Virus record (IMG/VR): IMGVR_UViG_3300032893_000138 | Span: 1 to 40,560 of that record | DNA from: a virus | Reading direction: 5' to 3' (one strand) | Length of the DNA: 40,560 nucleotides | Shown: positions 647 through 36,580 of the stretch, one piece after another | How the letters are laid out: the number at the start of each line of letters is the position of its first letter | Position numbering within the stretch: position 1 is the first letter of the stretch | Made by a program: the position numbers and the translations under genes | Notes under the pieces: generated by a model | Seen by the model: the letters and a program-made list of their open reading frames with translations, nothing else | Databases searched by the model: none | What the model was told of the DNA's origin: nothing

Positions 647-657
647 GGAAACCATGA
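643..657 (+). repeat. 15-base SD/start cassette, copy 1
   Basis: The 15 bases GTGAGGAAACCATGA, holding the SD and start codon of the 64-aa gene, recur exactly at 845-859 in front of the next gene. This suggests that one gene start arose by duplication of the other or that a common translation-initiation cassette is reused. Confidence 0.9.
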
Positions 658-848
658 CCTCATCCCAACTCGACGCTTGGCGCCGCCGCCCGCTCGAAGT
701 GAAGGTATTCGACCGCTGCGACGAATGCAAGACGCTTCAGCCGGATGTCCGCGAGCGCATCAACTTTTGGCCCAACATCCGCGCAGTATGCTGCTCCAAC
801 TGCTTCAACCGGATGCTCGCCGAATTTAACGACCTCTCATATACGTGA
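654..848 (+). CDS. Small zinc-binding-type protein (64 aa)
   Basis: ATG 654 is preceded by GAGG at 645-648 and overlaps nothing. The product contains CDEC and, about 24 residues later, CSNC, a two-CxxC arrangement typical of small zinc ribbons. The same frame is open further upstream to 579, but the SD and the end of the previous gene favour 654. It may bind nucleic acid or act as a protein adaptor; this is inference from the cysteine pattern only. Confidence 0.65.
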   Translation: MTSSQLDAWRRRPLEVKVFDRCDECKTLQPDVRERINFWPNIRAVCCSNCFNRMLAEFNDLSYT

Positions 849-859
849 GGAAACCATGA
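845..859 (+). repeat. 15-base SD/start cassette, copy 2
   Basis: Exact second copy of the SD-plus-ATG cassette at 643-657, here leading the 43-aa membrane protein gene at 856. Confidence 0.9.
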
Positions 860-987
860 TCTGGATCGTAGGTGGTATCGCTCTGTGGGGCGACATGGCA
901 CTCGTCGCAATGGCCTTCAGCCACGGTGCCCATCGCAAGGAAAACCCGCGCGAGTTTCGGCGGATTCGATCACTGGAGGAAGTATGA
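856..987 (+). CDS. Small membrane protein (43 aa)
   Basis: ATG 856 follows GAGG at 847-850. Residues about 2-20 (MIWIVGGIALWGDMALVAM) form one hydrophobic segment, followed by a basic cytoplasmic-type tail (HRKENPREFRRIR). The stop overlaps the start of the next gene in an ATGA. Function is unknown; a single-pass membrane peptide is all the sequence supports. Confidence 0.6.
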   Translation: MIWIVGGIALWGDMALVAMAFSHGAHRKENPREFRRIRSLEEV

Positions 988-1295
988 AGATACCGGAAAT
1001 CGCCGATATAGACGTGGCCTTCGGCACCACGAAGGGGCTTCCCGCTTATGCATCCGTTCCCGACGAGTTCAAGCGCATGAACGGCACGAAGTGGAACAAG
1101 CTGTTCTCCGATTGGTTTTATGGCGGAATGAAATCGCTTCGCCTGGCTCCGAACGAGGGCGTCGACAAGGATGCCGCGCTGAAGCATATCCGCGCCCTGA
1201 TGAAATCGTGTAAGTCGAAGCACGAACACAAAGAGGCAGGCGTCGCCTATCTGATGAGCAAGTACTTCGCTGATGCGGAATGGGAGAAAAAGTGA
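984..1295 (+). CDS. Hypothetical protein (103 aa)
   Basis: ATG 984 has a strong GGAGGA at 975-980 and overlaps the previous stop by 4 bases. The product is soluble, Lys-rich, with two Trp in KWNKLFSDWF and a C-terminal basic helix region. I do not recognise a family. It is followed by the acyl carrier protein gene, whose GTG start overlaps this stop, so the two are probably translationally coupled. Confidence 0.7.
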   Translation: MKIPEIADIDVAFGTTKGLPAYASVPDEFKRMNGTKWNKLFSDWFYGGMKSLRLAPNEGVDKDAALKHIRALMKSCKSKHEHKEAGVAYLMSKYFADAEWEKK

Positions 1296-1546
1296 GCACA
1301 GCAATCCACCAAGGCTCCATCGAGGAGCGCATCAAAAAGTGCATCGGCGAGATCATGCAACGCCCGCCCGAGGACTTCAAAAACTCTGACCGACTCGACC
1401 ATGACATCGGCTGCGACTCCATCGATTTGCTCGAAATCGTAATGTCAGTTGAAGGCGAGTTCGACATCGAGATCAGCGATGAGGACGGCGAGAAGCTGCT
1501 GACGATCCAACAGGCTATCGACTACGTGACGGCGAAGGTTTCCTAA
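1292..1546 (+). CDS. Acyl carrier protein
   Basis: The 84-residue product has the size and layout of type II acyl carrier proteins. An N-terminal helix (IEERIKKCIGEIM) is followed by an acidic second half and the phosphopantetheine motif GCDSIDLLE, with Ser43 as attachment site (compare GADSLDTVE of bacterial AcpP). The C-terminus has the usual ISDEDGEKLLTIQQAIDYV pattern (helix III, then helix IV). In the family the holo-protein carries acyl groups as thioesters for fatty acid, lipid or secondary metabolite enzymes. GTG 1292 is chosen because GGAG at 1283-1286 precedes it and it forms a GTGA overlap with the previous stop; an in-frame ATG at 1280 would add four residues. No synthase or transferase gene is adjacent, so its partner is probably a host enzyme. 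Confidence 0.9.
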   Translation: MSTAIHQGSIEERIKKCIGEIMQRPPEDFKNSDRLDHDIGCDSIDLLEIVMSVEGEFDIEISDEDGEKLLTIQQAIDYVTAKVS

Positions 1547-1767
1547 GCCACGGCGGCTCCTGAGCATCTAGATGCCGGTCTGGTGCGAAACCAGTGACAG
1601 CCGGGAAAAGACCGAGAGTTGCGAGCCTCTTAATACGCTGACGGCGGGAAAGACCGCGCCCTGAGCGGTGGCGATTCTCCGTTGCGGACACGCGGCGGTA
1701 AATAGACCTGGACGGGTAGAGTCGCTAACACTGAGGACCATCCCTACACACAATTAAGGAGTGCTTC
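1547..1767 (+). other. Gene-free, hairpin-rich stretch; candidate structured RNA or leader
   Basis: No credible ORF lies here. Short hairpins follow one another on the + strand: CTGGT-GCGAA-ACCAG (1580-1594), AGAG/CTCT (1615-1630) and GCGG-GAAAGA-CCGC (1644-1657). The strings GCCGGGAAAAGACCG (from 1600) and GGCGGGAAAGACCG (from 1643) form an imperfect direct repeat. The next gene begins with its own strong SD (AAGGAG). It could be an untranslated leader with regulatory structure, a small RNA, or a deleted gene; no known RNA family was recognised. Confidence 0.35.
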
Positions 1768-3130: not shown

Positions 3131-4333
3131 ATGAGCACAGAACTCACCGTTGCACAGCGCGCTGCCGTAGCGCTGAAATCGGCCCAGCATGAGCAGGAAT
3201 TGAAAGCGCTCGCAACGAAGTACGCGGACATCACCGAGATCGTCAACGGCGCGGGCCGCGATCAAGCCCACGGTGCCATGATGGAACTGGCCAACCGGCG
3301 CGTCGCCATCACGAAGGCCGGGAAGGAGGCGCGCGATGATGCCAACGCGTTTTTGAAGGCGGTCATTGCTGAAGAGAAGCGCCTTGTTGGCCTCATAGAA
3401 CCCGAGGAAGGGCGCCTCCGCACCCTGCGCGACGCTTGGGATGCCGAGCGCGAACGCGAGAAGCAAGCCAAAGCCGCCGCCGAGAAAGCGCGAGTAGACG
3501 GTATCCGTCAGCGCATCGCCGAGATCCAAGCCATCCCGGCGATGCTGGTAGGCAAGCAATCGGAAACCATCGCCGCAGCGATTGAGAGCTTGGAGGTGGT
3601 CGAGATAACGCTCGAAGCATTCGCGGAGTTTGCCGGCGAAAGTCAGATGGTCAAGATCGCCGCCGTCGCCAAGCTGGGCGAGATGCTGTCGGCTCAAATC
3701 GCGCACGAGCAGGAGCAGGCCCGGTTGCAGGCAGAACGTGAGCAACTGGCCCGCGAACGCGCCGAGGCCACCGAACGAGAGCGCATCGCCGCAGCAGCGC
3801 GGGCAGAGGAAGAACGCAAGGCACGCGAGGCCCGGGAAGCGGAAGAGGCCCGTCTGCGCGCCGAACGCGAGAAGCATGAGGCTGAGTTGCGAGCGCAGCA
3901 AGAATCCCACGAACGCCTTATGGCAGAGCGCCAAGCCGAACTTGATCGCAAGCAGGCGGAGATTGATCGAAAGGAACGTGAGCAGCGCGAGCGCGAAGAG
4001 GCTGAATCGCGCGTTAAGCGCGAAGCGGAGGAGCAAGCAGCGCGCCAAGAGGCGGAGCGTATCGCAGCCGAGCAGGCAGCAATAGAGTACCAGCGCATCG
4101 CCGACGAACAAGTCGCAGCCGAAGCAGAGCGCCAGCGCACCGCCAAGATTCACGATCTGTTCCAACCGCAGGCCGAACGCGAGCTAGAGGAAATGGTGAC
4201 GATCACCAAGGCCGAATACGAACGCCTTTGCGAGCGCGATGAATGGTTGTCATGCCTTGAAGCGGCTGGCGTCGACAACTGGGAAGGGATGGAAGAAGCC
4301 ATTCGAATCCGACGAGAAGAGGAGGCAGCGTGA
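3131..4333 (+). CDS. Long coiled-coil protein of the recombination module (400 aa)
   Basis: Residues about 105-345 are almost entirely charged heptads rich in Glu, Arg, Ala and Gln (for example EREQLARERAEATERER), a long coiled coil interrupted near 130-200. The N-terminal 100 residues are helical and less repetitive; the C-terminus (about 350-400) has a small Trp/Cys-containing domain. Similar coiled-coil proteins lie directly upstream of RecT/exonuclease pairs in many proteobacterial phages, which is the arrangement here. Its biochemical role is not established; a DNA-end or recombinase accessory role is inference. The stop overlaps the HNH gene start. Confidence 0.8.
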   Translation: MSTELTVAQRAAVALKSAQHEQELKALATKYADITEIVNGAGRDQAHGAMMELANRRVAITKAGKEARDDANAFLKAVIAEEKRLVGLIEPEEGRLRTLRDAWDAEREREKQAKAAAEKARVDGIRQRIAEIQAIPAMLVGKQSETIAAAIESLEVVEITLEAFAEFAGESQMVKIAAVAKLGEMLSAQIAHEQEQARLQAEREQLARERAEATERERIAAAARAEEERKAREAREAEEARLRAEREKHEAELRAQQESHERLMAERQAELDRKQAEIDRKEREQREREEAESRVKREAEEQAARQEAERIAAEQAAIEYQRIADEQVAAEAERQRTAKIHDLFQPQAERELEEMVTITKAEYERLCERDEWLSCLEAAGVDNWEGMEEAIRIRREEEAA

Positions 4334-4848
4334 GTAACGCTTTGCAGGTAATCACTCAAGAGAGATTGAAAGAGTTGCTTTTCTATGATCCCGATACCGG
4401 CCTGTTCATGTGGCGTCGAGATCACTTTTGCGCCAAAGAGGGAATGGTTGCCGGAAGCAGAGCGGGAAAGCAATACATCCGAATCCGGGTAGACGGGAAA
4501 GGCTATTACGCACATAGGCTCGCCGTGCTCTATATGACCGGTGAGATGCCGCCGCGATCAATCGATGTCGACCATATCGACCTCAATGGCCAGAACAACC
4601 GCTGGCTGAATCTTCGTTGCGTGCCGCACGCTCTGAACTTGCAGAATCAGAGAGAAAAAGGCGCGAACCGGAAGAATCCTAGCAGTCGCCTCTTGGGTGT
4701 TTCATGGAAGAAGGAAAAGGGAAAATGGGTGGCCGTTATTACGGTTTCCGGTCGCCAGAAGCACCTAGGCTACTTTGACGATGAACATCTGGCCCATACC
4801 GCATATGTGACTGCTAAACGCAGTTTGCACAAAGGAAACACGCTATGA
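4330..4848 (+). CDS. HNH endonuclease with AP2-type DNA-binding domain
   Basis: The GTG start at 4330 overlaps the previous stop and follows AGGAG. The 172-residue product has an N-terminal region seen in phage HNH proteins (ELLFYDPDTGLFMWRR). The HNH core VDHIDLNGQNNRWLNLR has His82 and the conserved Asn residues, ending with NLQNQ near 103-107. A C-terminal AP2-like domain (about 119-168, GVSWKKEKGKWVAVI ... LGYFDDEHLAHTAY) follows. Such proteins are free-standing homing or nicking endonucleases. It sits between the coiled-coil gene and the RecT gene with 4-base overlaps on both sides, so it looks domesticated into the operon rather than a recent insertion. Confidence 0.9.
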   Translation: MSNALQVITQERLKELLFYDPDTGLFMWRRDHFCAKEGMVAGSRAGKQYIRIRVDGKGYYAHRLAVLYMTGEMPPRSIDVDHIDLNGQNNRWLNLRCVPHALNLQNQREKGANRKNPSSRLLGVSWKKEKGKWVAVITVSGRQKHLGYFDDEHLAHTAYVTAKRSLHKGNTL

Positions 4849-5639
4849 CTACGGCAATCGTACCGTTTCAGGAAATGGAGAGCATGGCCTCCTACATCGT
4901 CAAATCGCGCCTATTCGGGGCGAAGGACGAAGCCCAAGCCATGAGCCTGATGTTGCTAGCCCAAGCTGAGGGAATGCACCCTATGGCGGCCATTCAGGAT
5001 TTCGACATCGTTCAGGGGCGCCCGGCACGCAAAACGCATTCGATCCTTGCCCGATTCCAGTCGGCGGGCGGCACGGTCCAATGGGATGAGATCAGCGCTA
5101 GCCGTGCATGCGGAACGTTCTCCCACAAGCAGGGCGGATCGCTGAGGGTTGAATGGACCATCGAGCAGGCAAAGCGAGTTGGCCTGACTGGCAAGGACAA
5201 CTGGAAGAACTACCCGCAAGCCATGCTCCGCGCACGTTGTATCGCCGAGGGAGTGCGAGCCGTCTATCCCGGCGCTATCGGCGGCATGTTGTCGGTCGAG
5301 GAAGCGCAGGACGTGGTAGCAGCCCCGCCGCGCGACATGGGCGCAGCCAACGAGGTGACGCCCGCGATCGACCTTCGCAAGAAGTGGCTCGATGCCGTAG
5401 CGGCAGCAACGACGAAAGACGGCCTCCAGAAAGTCTGGAAAGACGGGCTGGCAGAGATCAAGCCGACCGGAAACATGGACGTCTATCATGCGATCAAGGC
5501 CGCCGTCGAGAGACGCAAGAGCGAACTGAATCAGCCGCCGCCCGATGTGATTGACGTGCAGGCGAAAGAGGTTGGCCGGGAACCCGGCTCTGATAACGAT
5601 TTTGTTTCGGCAATGGATGCCGCAGGAGACATGCAATGA
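4845..5639 (+). CDS. RecT-like single-strand annealing protein
   Basis: The 264-residue product has the features of the RecT-type recombinases: an N-terminal helical region with MSLMLLAQAEGMHPM, the core motif KTHSILARFQSAGG, and NWKNYPQAMLRARCIAEGVR followed by AVYPGAIGGMLSVEEAQD. A polar, variable C-terminal tail begins near residue 170. RecT proteins bind single-stranded DNA and anneal complementary strands in phage recombination, working with a 5'-3' exonuclease. The next gene encodes that exonuclease with a 4-base overlap, the standard two-component arrangement. The family call is from motif memory. Confidence 0.88.
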   Translation: MTTAIVPFQEMESMASYIVKSRLFGAKDEAQAMSLMLLAQAEGMHPMAAIQDFDIVQGRPARKTHSILARFQSAGGTVQWDEISASRACGTFSHKQGGSLRVEWTIEQAKRVGLTGKDNWKNYPQAMLRARCIAEGVRAVYPGAIGGMLSVEEAQDVVAAPPRDMGAANEVTPAIDLRKKWLDAVAAATTKDGLQKVWKDGLAEIKPTGNMDVYHAIKAAVERRKSELNQPPPDVIDVQAKEVGREPGSDNDFVSAMDAAGDMQ

Positions 5640-6271
5640 CAGTCTGGATTGAATGTGCCCAAGGCACGGACGAATGGAAAGCCGCCCGGTGCGGAGTCAT
5701 CACCGCGTCGAAGTTCAAGGACGCCTGCGACAAGCTCAAGAGCGGCAAGCCGTCTGCGAAGGCGAATACCTACGCCGCTCAGGTTGCAATGGAGCGCGTT
5801 ACCGGCAAGCCATCCGATGAACAGTTCGTGACGTGGCAGATGAAGCAGGGCACCGAGCGCGAGCCGATGGCGCGACTGGAGTACGAATCGCTGACCGGAA
5901 ATCTTGCGTCGGAATCAGGGATCGTCCTGACCGATGACCGGCTGTTCGGCTACTCGTCGGACGGGTACGTTGGCGACGACGGGATCATCGAAATCAAGAG
6001 CCTCGCTAGCGCCGAAAAGATCATCGAGATCTGGCGCAATCACAACCCCGAGGACTACATGCACCAGATTCAGGGTGGGCTCTGGATCACCGGCCGCAAG
6101 TGGGCCGATTTCATCATGTACGTGCCTGAGCTCGAGTCGGTCGGAAAGCAACTGTACTACCAACGAATCGAGCGCGATGAGTCGTTCATCGGGCAGCTTG
6201 AAGTTGACCTGATGCAGTTTGCGTCCACGGTCTCGGAACTCGAAGCGGTGCTGCGCCAGCAAGCCGCGTAA
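5636..6271 (+). CDS. YqaJ/lambda-type exonuclease
   Basis: The product (211 aa) starts with the ECAQGTDEWKAARCGVITAS pattern of the YqaJ viral recombinase family. It carries the PD-(D/E)xK-type site: Glu74/Glu76 in QGTEREPMAR, Asp109 in YSSDGYVG and EIK at 119-121, followed by the QIQGGLWITGRKWADF motif. The family degrades the 5' strand of duplex ends to give single strands for the annealing protein encoded just upstream. All catalytic positions are present and the length is normal, so it should be active. It ends the recombination module; an 81-base gap follows. Confidence 0.93.
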   Translation: MTVWIECAQGTDEWKAARCGVITASKFKDACDKLKSGKPSAKANTYAAQVAMERVTGKPSDEQFVTWQMKQGTEREPMARLEYESLTGNLASESGIVLTDDRLFGYSSDGYVGDDGIIEIKSLASAEKIIEIWRNHNPEDYMHQIQGGLWITGRKWADFIMYVPELESVGKQLYYQRIERDESFIGQLEVDLMQFASTVSELEAVLRQQAA

Positions 6272-12113: not shown

Positions 12114-12313
12114 AAGCCCAATTCAAAGCCGAGAAACCATCCGATATCCAGATGACCATGACGCTCACGATGACGCTGGGCGAATGGAACGAGATCGCAG
12201 ATCACCTGACCGATACACGCCACTACCGGCCAGACGGGAAGTTGCTGGATGCGATCAGGACGATGGCGCGAAAGGCTGGCACCCACTTTGACGAGGTGGG
12301 CGAACTGCCGTGA
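12110..12313 (+). CDS. Hypothetical protein (67 aa)
   Basis: GTG 12110 follows GGAGGAG and overlaps the previous stop. The product has a beta strand (QMTMTLTMTLGEWNEIADHL) followed by a helix. The beginning 'MTLGEW..I.D.L' resembles short phage proteins of unknown role. Confidence 0.65.
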   Translation: MKAQFKAEKPSDIQMTMTLTMTLGEWNEIADHLTDTRHYRPDGKLLDAIRTMARKAGTHFDEVGELP

Positions 12314-12372
12314 TCGAAGCAGCCGCACGAATCTTAGAAATCACCAGGAAAGACTGGAGAATTTATCGATGA
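12310..12372 (+). CDS. Possible micro-ORF (20 aa) coupling to the PrtN-like gene
   Basis: GTG 12310 overlaps the previous stop; 20 codons follow and the stop overlaps the ATG of the next gene at 12369. The chain of 4-base overlaps continues through it, which could allow reinitiation at the activator gene. The peptide itself has no recognisable feature, and there is no independent proof of translation. Confidence 0.3.
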   Translation: MIEAAARILEITRKDWRIYR

Positions 12373-12632
12373 GCGATCTCGTTCGACAACTGGAGCCCCA
12401 GTTCAAGACTCCACTCTTGCCATTGGAGGTGGTGCGGACAAACTTCTTCCCGCATCTCTCTGCGGACTCGTTCAACCGGCGCGCAAGAGCAAACGATTTG
12501 GGCTTTCCGGTCATCAGCGCCGAGCGCTCGCAGAAGTCCGCGATGTTCGTCCACATTGACGATCTGGGCGCCTATCTGGAGGCCCGGTGCGCCGTCGCGA
12601 GACGGGAGCATGCCATGCTGGTCGGTGCTTAG
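12369..12632 (+). CDS. PrtN-like transcriptional activator
   Basis: The 87-residue product fits the pyocin activator PrtN family. PLLPLEVVRTNFFPHL is followed by a F-x-R-x-A-R stretch, then DLGFPVISAERSQKSAMFVH and IDDLGAYLEARC. Family members read as xxPLxxVxxDYFxHLxxxKFxRK ... LPxxxxExSQK ... VHxxDLAxYIxxR; the SQK signature is present. PrtN activates pyocin promoters in Pseudomonas aeruginosa, and related genes lie in many phages. As the last gene of the left operon it is a good candidate for the activator of the late, leftward operons. That role is inference. Confidence 0.82.
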   Translation: MSDLVRQLEPQFKTPLLPLEVVRTNFFPHLSADSFNRRARANDLGFPVISAERSQKSAMFVHIDDLGAYLEARCAVARREHAMLVGA

Positions 12633-12926: not shown

Positions 12927-13745
12927 TTAGGCTGTGACACCAGCGAACTGCGCCAGCGCCGCCTTCGTCGTGGCATACCCGTCATCAATCAGTCTCTGAC
13001 GGATAGCGGTCGGCATGTTGCGATCCAGGCTGGATGCATACCCGGTCTGAACCCGAACGATGGTAGCGCCGTTCTTCGTGTCCAGCGCCACGTGCGAGTC
13101 TTCATTTGACGCCAGCAACAGATCGATGATCCGAGGCGCGAGCGTGGCGAGACCGTATGAGCCGGGTTTGAGCGCCGAATCATCCGACTCCAGATAGATG
13201 CCCACGCGCGGTGCGTAGTCGGCCGTCAGGACGCTGGCCGGCACATTGTTGCAGCACCCGCCATCCACCATCAGCGCATCGCCATATGCCACTGGCGCGA
13301 ACACGATAGGGATAGATGCCGAGGCCCGGGCCGCGAGCGCGATTGGTGCATCCGATGTCGTGGCGCGCGAGAACACGAATTCTTTCTCGGTCAGCAGATC
13401 CGAGGCGATCACCTTCAGATCGACCGACAGATCGGCGAACGTCTTGCCTTCCGTCTGCTTGGTGAGGAAGTCGAGCAGTGTCTCGCCTGAGCAGAAAGCC
13501 TGTTTCGAGATGAACGCCCACGGTGAGAACGACATCATGGGCGACCAGTCCATCGTCATGCACAACTGGCGAAGATCGGCCAATGACATGCCGGAAGCGT
13601 ACAGGCTCGCGACGATCGAACCACCGGAAGTCCCGGCGAGTTCAATTACCTCGTAGCCCGCATCCTCGATGGCCTGGAGCGCGCCCAAATGCGCACCCAG
13701 GCGAAAGCCCGATCCGCTCAGGGCGACGCGAATGGGCTTCTTCAT
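12927..13745 (-). CDS. Patatin-like phospholipase
   Basis: The 272-residue product has the three patatin signatures in order. An oxyanion-hole glycine motif reads SGSGFRLGAHLGAL (residues 10-23; the usual GGG is GSG here). The nucleophile elbow is GTSGG with Ser40, and the dyad Asp161 lies in MVDGGCCNNVP. Patatins hydrolyse acyl ester bonds of phospholipids with a Ser-Asp dyad. No signal peptide is seen, so the enzyme is cytoplasmic until lysis unless released otherwise. It is the last gene of the late operon, coupled (TAATG) to two lipoprotein genes and a holin-like gene. A role in membrane disruption at lysis or in lipid remodelling is inference. Confidence 0.9.
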   Translation of the reverse strand: MKKPIRVALSGSGFRLGAHLGALQAIEDAGYEVIELAGTSGGSIVASLYASGMSLADLRQLCMTMDWSPMMSFSPWAFISKQAFCSGETLLDFLTKQTEGKTFADLSVDLKVIASDLLTEKEFVFSRATTSDAPIALAARASASIPIVFAPVAYGDALMVDGGCCNNVPASVLTADYAPRVGIYLESDDSALKPGSYGLATLAPRIIDLLLASNEDSHVALDTKNGATIVRVQTGYASSLDRNMPTAIRQRLIDDGYATTKAALAQFAGVTA

Positions 13746-36492: not shown

Positions 36493-36556
36493 GATGTTCC
36501 CTGTTGATCTTCCCTGTTTGAGATGCCGTGGAAACGTGACAGGGGGCACGCTTGTC

Positions 36557-36568
36557 GGTTGCGCAACC
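36557..36568. repeat. 12-bp perfect palindrome
   Basis: GGTTGCGCAACC in the leader of the neck operon, between the HNH gene terminator and the 171-aa gene. It may be a protein-binding site or part of a promoter region. Confidence 0.6.
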
Positions 36569-36580
36569 TATCCACGGCAA

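Follow-up and report, generated by a model that had tools for sequence, protein, structure and literature searches.

The presence of an acyl carrier protein (ACP) gene among the recombination genes of a myovirus raises the question of where this gene came from and whether a phage ACP has to carry acyl groups in order to function. The window analysed here spans a whole IMG/VR record, 40,560 bases in length. Its ACP frame comprises 84 codons from a GTG start at 1292 to a TAA stop at 1544–1546, with an ATG at 1280 as a possible longer start. A GGGAG motif is located 5 bases before the GTG, which shares bases with the stop codon of the ORF before it (GTGA), so that translation of both genes is probably coupled. 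The protein covers the complete Pfam profile PF00550 (positions 1–67 of 67; E 2.2e-10, 41.1 bits at a cut-off of 20.8) and matches PHROG 5934, 'acyl carrier protein', with residues 5–83 on profile positions 10–88 of 93 (E 7.4e-17). Its sequence match in the PDB is AcpP of E. coli (E 6e-19). The AlphaFold model (pLDDT 89) displays a four-helix fold with helices at residues 10–22, 43–57, 63–68, and 72–83, and the closest PDB folds are AcpP structures (TM 0.84–0.90). Ser43, the predicted phosphopantetheine site (codon TCC 1418–1420, motif GCDSID), opens helix II in this model. The protein is acidic, with a pI of 4.3 and a charge of about -12. Pfam, PHROG 5934, the AlphaFold model, and the PDB all agree, in no case at chance level, with the initial annotation of a full-length phage ACP with an intact phosphopantetheine Ser, and by sequence and model the gene product looks like a functional type II ACP.

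On the minus strand, matches to tail sheath, baseplate, hub, and tail-fibre proteins extend from about 16 kb to 40 kb, while the plus strand near the ACP gene harbors recombination genes encoding a Gp5.9-type domain, RecT, and YqaJ (Table 1). As the ACP gene is co-linear with those for RecT and YqaJ, it was assigned to an early operon. Annotated phage genomes yielded no close DNA match to the first 25 kb of the window. The window capsid is about 76% identical to those of prophages of Paraburkholderia dilworthii, Caballeronia glathei, and P. phenoliruptrix and 77% identical to that of IMG record 2918843722_000002 (G002). Since these capsid relatives are Paraburkholderia and Caballeronia prophages, we infer that the host belongs to the Burkholderiaceae.

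Table 1. Features of the window in the surroundings of the ACP gene, and the patatin-like gene.
Feature	Position	Strand	Evidence or remark
DUF7685-like small protein, conserved cassette marker	654..848	+	weak Pfam match, below cut-off
Mini-protein of about 43 aa, single-TM-like	856..987	+	read from sequence
Upstream ORF, 103 aa, PHROG 36680 (unknown function)	984..1295	+	E 1.4e-20
Acyl carrier protein (ACP), 84 aa	1292..1546	+	PF00550, PHROG 5934, AlphaFold, PDB
Untranslated gap with structured-RNA helix	1547..1767	+	directly downstream of ACP
PHROG 21091 early-region protein, C-terminal T7 Gp5.9-like RecBCD-inhibitor domain, synteny anchor	3131..4333	+	
RecT-family annealing protein	4845..5639	+	Pfam
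YqaJ-family recombination nuclease, synteny anchor	5636..6271	+	
Patatin-like phospholipase	12927..13745	-	PF01734, E 3e-30; weak PADLOC phospholipase-effector match

The early operon was initially described as lacking any partner enzyme for the ACP. This is correct for the neighborhood but does not extend to the phage as a whole, which encodes a patatin-like phospholipase. No other lipid-active enzyme was recognised in the window; the patatin gene is not adjacent to that of the ACP, is read from the opposite strand, and was not found among the relatives compared. As neither its position nor these relatives provided support, the patatin was rejected as a partner of the ACP. Close to the presumed lysis region, it lies next to a lipoprotein-like ORF. 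Further observations on the window concern a PrtN-like pyocin activator protein (12249–12632, plus strand; PF11112, E 1.8e-17), a match to the int-alpA RNA family RF02996 inside the structural-gene region (36512–36578, minus strand; 50 bits, cut-off 35.8), and tandem 54-base repeats at positions 1–435. The counterpart of the repeat region in G002 is a 310-aa ORF with GAATASG-type repeats, the frame of which differs from that of the longest ORF called in the window. The coiled-coil-type PHROG 21091 protein contains the Gp5.9 domain as PF25708 (E 1.6e-18) and looks like a fusion, because its orthologue in G002 is devoid of this domain.

Three of the four capsid relatives in which the early region was examined (capsid identity of at least 74%) possess an ACP gene, namely G002, G064 (carried by P. 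dilworthii WSM3556), and G065 (carried by C. glathei DSM 50014). The fourth, G051, with a capsid identity of 74%, is a close relative without ACP, and the other contigs found via the anchor protein gave no ACP match. In the window, G002, and G064, the order is the same: the DUF7685-like gene, a TM mini-protein of about 40 aa, ACP, an untranslated gap, the PHROG 21091 protein, a recombinase, and YqaJ, with one further short ORF between ACP and the gap in G002. In G065, mini-protein, ACP, and gap are arranged as in the window and the recombination module differs. By position, counterparts of the mini-protein occur directly upstream of ACP in all three relatives and also in relatives without ACP, whereas the PHROG 36680 ORF, which in the window separates mini-protein and ACP, was not seen at that place in any of the three. 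The ACPs of the three prophages are 35–46% identical to that of the window, and the proteins surrounding ACP at its constant position are strongly diverged.

The window ACP has its fold, DSL-type motif, helix-II residues, and acidity in common with the housekeeping AcpP of Burkholderiaceae. However, it is only 44% identical to this AcpP, which is nearly invariant in the family, and its neighbors are phage early-region genes rather than a fab cluster. Phage ACP copies are about 34–51% alike. In a tree based on 84 columns, the ACPs of the window, G002, G064, G044, and G046 grouped together and apart from host AcpP with a support of 92/86, which is not decisive. An AU test on the same 84 columns, which hold little signal, rejected neither a single clade of host AcpPs (p 0.41) nor a six-phage clade (p 0.42). 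A recent capture from the host followed by loss in close relatives, as considered in the initial annotation, is largely contradicted by the identity to AcpP, the tree, and the same location in three relatives, although the absence of ACP from G051 agrees with the latter part. In view of the conserved position in divergent relatives and the tree, recent host capture was rejected as a simple story.

In a sample of 200 Burkholderiaceae genomes, a strong ACP match, typically one AcpP, occurred in 193, and nine had more than one. Among the extra copies with surroundings that were read, two reside in prophage-type regions (G064 and G183), and that of G202 is located inside a host biosynthetic cluster. 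The G183 prophage copy, which at 61% is nearer to host AcpP, may have been captured more recently. The 2.3-Mb genome G122 harbors a second AcpP-like gene (82 aa; L170:5838-6556) beside a terminase-like fragment, perhaps left by a prophage remnant. Copies also occur in phages with unrelated capsids (none of 11 records matched, some of these being fragments), and the gene therefore appears to move between phages. Within close prophage pairs, the dN/dS of ACP was about 0.2–0.4, based on few substitutions and leaving out pairs with L228 and L257, which were misaligned by one or two codons. Taken together, the comparison of sequences indicates that the ACP gene is an old, maintained, and patchy accessory gene of a Burkholderiaceae temperate phage lineage. 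The Acinetobacter phage MD-2021a was discarded as the source of the closest phage ACP, as its contig is host chromosome (yceD-rpmF-fabD-fabG-acpP); two records, CAKLQH020000007.1, in which the host genes were read, and CAKLQF020000011.1, with the same acpP match, produce this false assignment.

The phosphopantetheine Ser was kept in 79 of 80 ACP loci from viral contigs read by eye, a number that is not an unbiased frequency since the scan patterns, which favor D[SD][LI]D or an E-D-E-F stretch, are not neutral. L220 and L227 display DSL by eye. The exception, L228, is a related prophage from an isolate-genome record with Arg instead of Ser in an otherwise conserved frame. In addition, the orthologue in G268 has an intact frame with LRFDDLDIVEITM, that is, Asp in place of Ser; the codon is GAT as opposed to TCC in the window, so a single read error is unlikely. 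Independently, the Ser is missing in the Ackermannviridae, where the 'acyl carrier protein' reads GGD(D/E)LD without Ser in all eight copies read (L181 and L193–L199, from BPS6, SFP10, Det7, Dickeya, PWKp5, KN2-1, ChubbyThor, and YEP3). Given Asp or Glu in all eight, the annotation as a 'carrier' is probably wrong, and phage ACPs with Asp, Glu, or Arg for Ser cannot carry acyl groups. Mass spectrometry detected one protein of this type in a Vi01-like phage (PMC10892097). The literature covered, which was incomplete, yielded no mention of a missing Ser in phage ACPs. The Ackermannviridae proteins (Det7, SFP10, 0507-KN2-1) share with the window ACP the phage-borne ACP fold and the helix-II motif E..VM..EEEF, but the window protein differs in possessing the Ser and no acidic substitute. 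G268, L228, and the Ackermannviridae together indicate that acyl carriage is not needed throughout this kind of gene and weaken the notion that the Ser is strictly conserved and carriage hence essential.

The ACP-like gene is core in the Ackermannviridae, with most of the query covered in 269 records, and phage ACPs are already catalogued in PHROGs 5934 and 4154 and known from roseophages; the view that ACPs are uncommon in phages is thus only partly right. PHROG 5934, categorised as moron, auxiliary metabolic gene and host takeover, comprises phage-borne ACPs and is matched over nearly the whole window protein, but the Burkholderiaceae early-region lineage has its own synteny and clade. Prophages of Rhodobacteraceae also carry acpP, three of eight with fabG-acpP-fabF as in the host, and in Celeribacter marinus prophage 2 acpP is the only auxiliary metabolic gene reported (PMC8224337); in contrast to the former arrangement, the window phage has no fab gene. 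ACPs are encoded by Erythrobacter phage vB_EliS-R6L and Vibrio phage R16F (PMC5463345, PMC10152775), and for R6L the function was stated to remain unclear (PMC5463345). Stand-alone ACPs also occur in these two phages, cyanophage P-HM1, GAP32, and Xanthomonas phage phiXF1, which are other, mostly larger phages with sequences distant from the window ACP. What the window gene adds is that, within a Burkholderiaceae lineage, its early-region position is constant and Ser loss provides a natural contrast.

The window, G064, and G065 each have an untranslated gap following ACP. Eight elements (window 1547-1767; L147:15237-15415; L105:5028-5300; L146:11688-11890; L098:8253-8405; L103:858-1030; L104:5203-5400; L185:270-500) have a helix of 14 positions in common (CCCUGA...UGAGGG), with arms at 1659-1672 and 1724-1737 in the window. 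Across 13 tested pairs, 94% of the cells pair, and both-side changes occurred in 24 cells compared to 7.6 in shuffles, a score to which selection contributes as the arms were picked by eye. The covariation signal was lost when the partner was slid by one column. The weakest copy is that of the window, in which 10 of 13 pairs form and the fold is only weakly better than shuffles (z -1.2). In the general architecture, a CCGGG hairpin, which is conserved, precedes a long helix that is closed by CCCUGA/UGAGGG, shows strong covariation, and contains a variable insert. Several modules sometimes occur in tandem (L105, L104, L115), in L115 with T-arm-like GGTTCGAATCC hairpins. Rfam gave no match for three of the eight elements, the window copy among them. 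Judged from these alignments, the early regions of Burkholderiaceae-type phages contain an undescribed structured non-coding RNA element or elements. Over 115 bases, the G064 gap and one in G051 share 96.5% identity; as the RNA thus also occurs without ACP, it is not part of an ACP mechanism as far as shown.

With regard to function, we tentatively favor, as a serious but far from assured possibility, that phage ACP is present in surplus, probably after modification by AcpS of the host, and competes with the AcpP of the host for common partners, thereby throttling host lipid synthesis during takeover. The phage ACP would be made early after infection or induction and probably be converted to holo-ACP by host AcpS. 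The surplus would then occupy the readers of the AcpP helix-II surface, i.e. fatty-acid enzymes, PlsB, and possibly SpoT, and host phospholipid synthesis or stress signalling would be throttled or uncoupled. The phosphopantetheine arm would be useful yet not essential, and the rare orthologues with Asp or Arg would be accounted for in this way. Competition with AcpP is the simplest account because it fits both Ser-bearing and Ser-less versions. The window ACP retains D35, S36, D38, E41, V43, M44, E47, F50, I54, D56, E57, E60, and A68 (E. coli AcpP numbering), the residues by which AcpP meets AcpS and its partners, and has Gly in place of E48; such retention is expected of any functional ACP and fits acyl carriage as well as competition. 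Few proteins are as abundant as host AcpP, so that the phage copy could compete only if strongly expressed. Mutations at M44, V43, F50, I54, and A68 weaken binding to SpoT or fatty-acid enzymes (PMC3340395). An excess of apo- or holo-ACP inhibits fatty-acid synthesis and growth of E. coli, apo-ACP being the stronger inhibitor of PlsB (review PMC3896788); this effect is known from E. coli overexpression, not from infected Burkholderiaceae. In the close relative G051, the ACP gene is dispensable.

Alternatively, host enzymes could load a dedicated phage acyl carrier, the holo form of which would deliver a specific acyl chain to a host acyltransferase (for lipid A, phospholipid, or acyl-homoserine lactone) or to an unrecognised phage enzyme, and the envelope or signalling would be remodelled. 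The Ser and the AcpS-contact residues are retained, the fold equals that of AcpP bound to LpxD, FabD, and FabZ, the phage does encode a patatin-like phospholipase, and the near-universal Ser in phage copies argues that in most members carriage matters and not mere binding. We nevertheless consider a dedicated carrier unlikely: in a set of 65 non-redundant phage ACP loci, no lipid enzyme, be it a ketosynthase, acyltransferase, or PPTase, was recognised among the neighbor clusters common to several loci (judged by eye) and the recurring neighbors were recombination proteins and SSB, the patatin is distant and confined to the window among the relatives compared, and Ser-less orthologues exist. 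These orthologues (G268 and L228) and the eight Ackermannviridae copies, which must act without phosphopantetheine, would be accommodated if the protein were an AcpP mimic that, with or without the prosthetic group, docks on one host protein (SpoT, SecA, IscS, an SMC-type complex, or a defence factor). Burkholderia uses an SMC system other than MukB. For MukB of E. coli, apo- and holo-AcpP are equally effective stimulators (PMC8602292), but SpoT was reported not to bind apo-ACP (PMC3896788). Because the Ser is present in the window protein and, with few exceptions, in the other phage copies, and because the Ackermannviridae proteins are distant and may serve a different purpose, binding alone appears quite improbable. 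Still less probable, in our estimation, is the wider idea that phages have repeatedly turned ACPs into acyl-independent AcpP mimics docking on AcpP partners to control the host, the window ACP being a Ser-bearing member of a family with at least one Ser loss (G268) in parallel to the Ackermannviridae.

The lowest probability is assigned to a neutral or weakly useful moron that was acquired long ago and hitch-hikes in a variable early-region slot. Its patchy presence (absence from G051, no match in the other anchor-protein contigs), the variable small genes around it, and the unrelated capsids would be in accordance with this. However, frames that are intact at 35–50% identity, conservation of the motif and contact residues, the same position in four phages, and the dN/dS in close pairs render it very unlikely. 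A role in defence or anti-defence was dismissed, as the ACP had no PADLOC match and the literature covered yielded no paper that brings together ACP, AcpP, phage, and anti-phage defence systems.

Stand-alone phage ACPs have been annotated for years without a tested function. The lineage described here is tractable, as it comprises culturable Paraburkholderia and Caballeronia lysogens, a constant position of the gene, Ser-bearing and Ser-less versions, and relatives with and without it. The question of whether a phage ACP needs acyl carriage is therefore directly testable in these phages.
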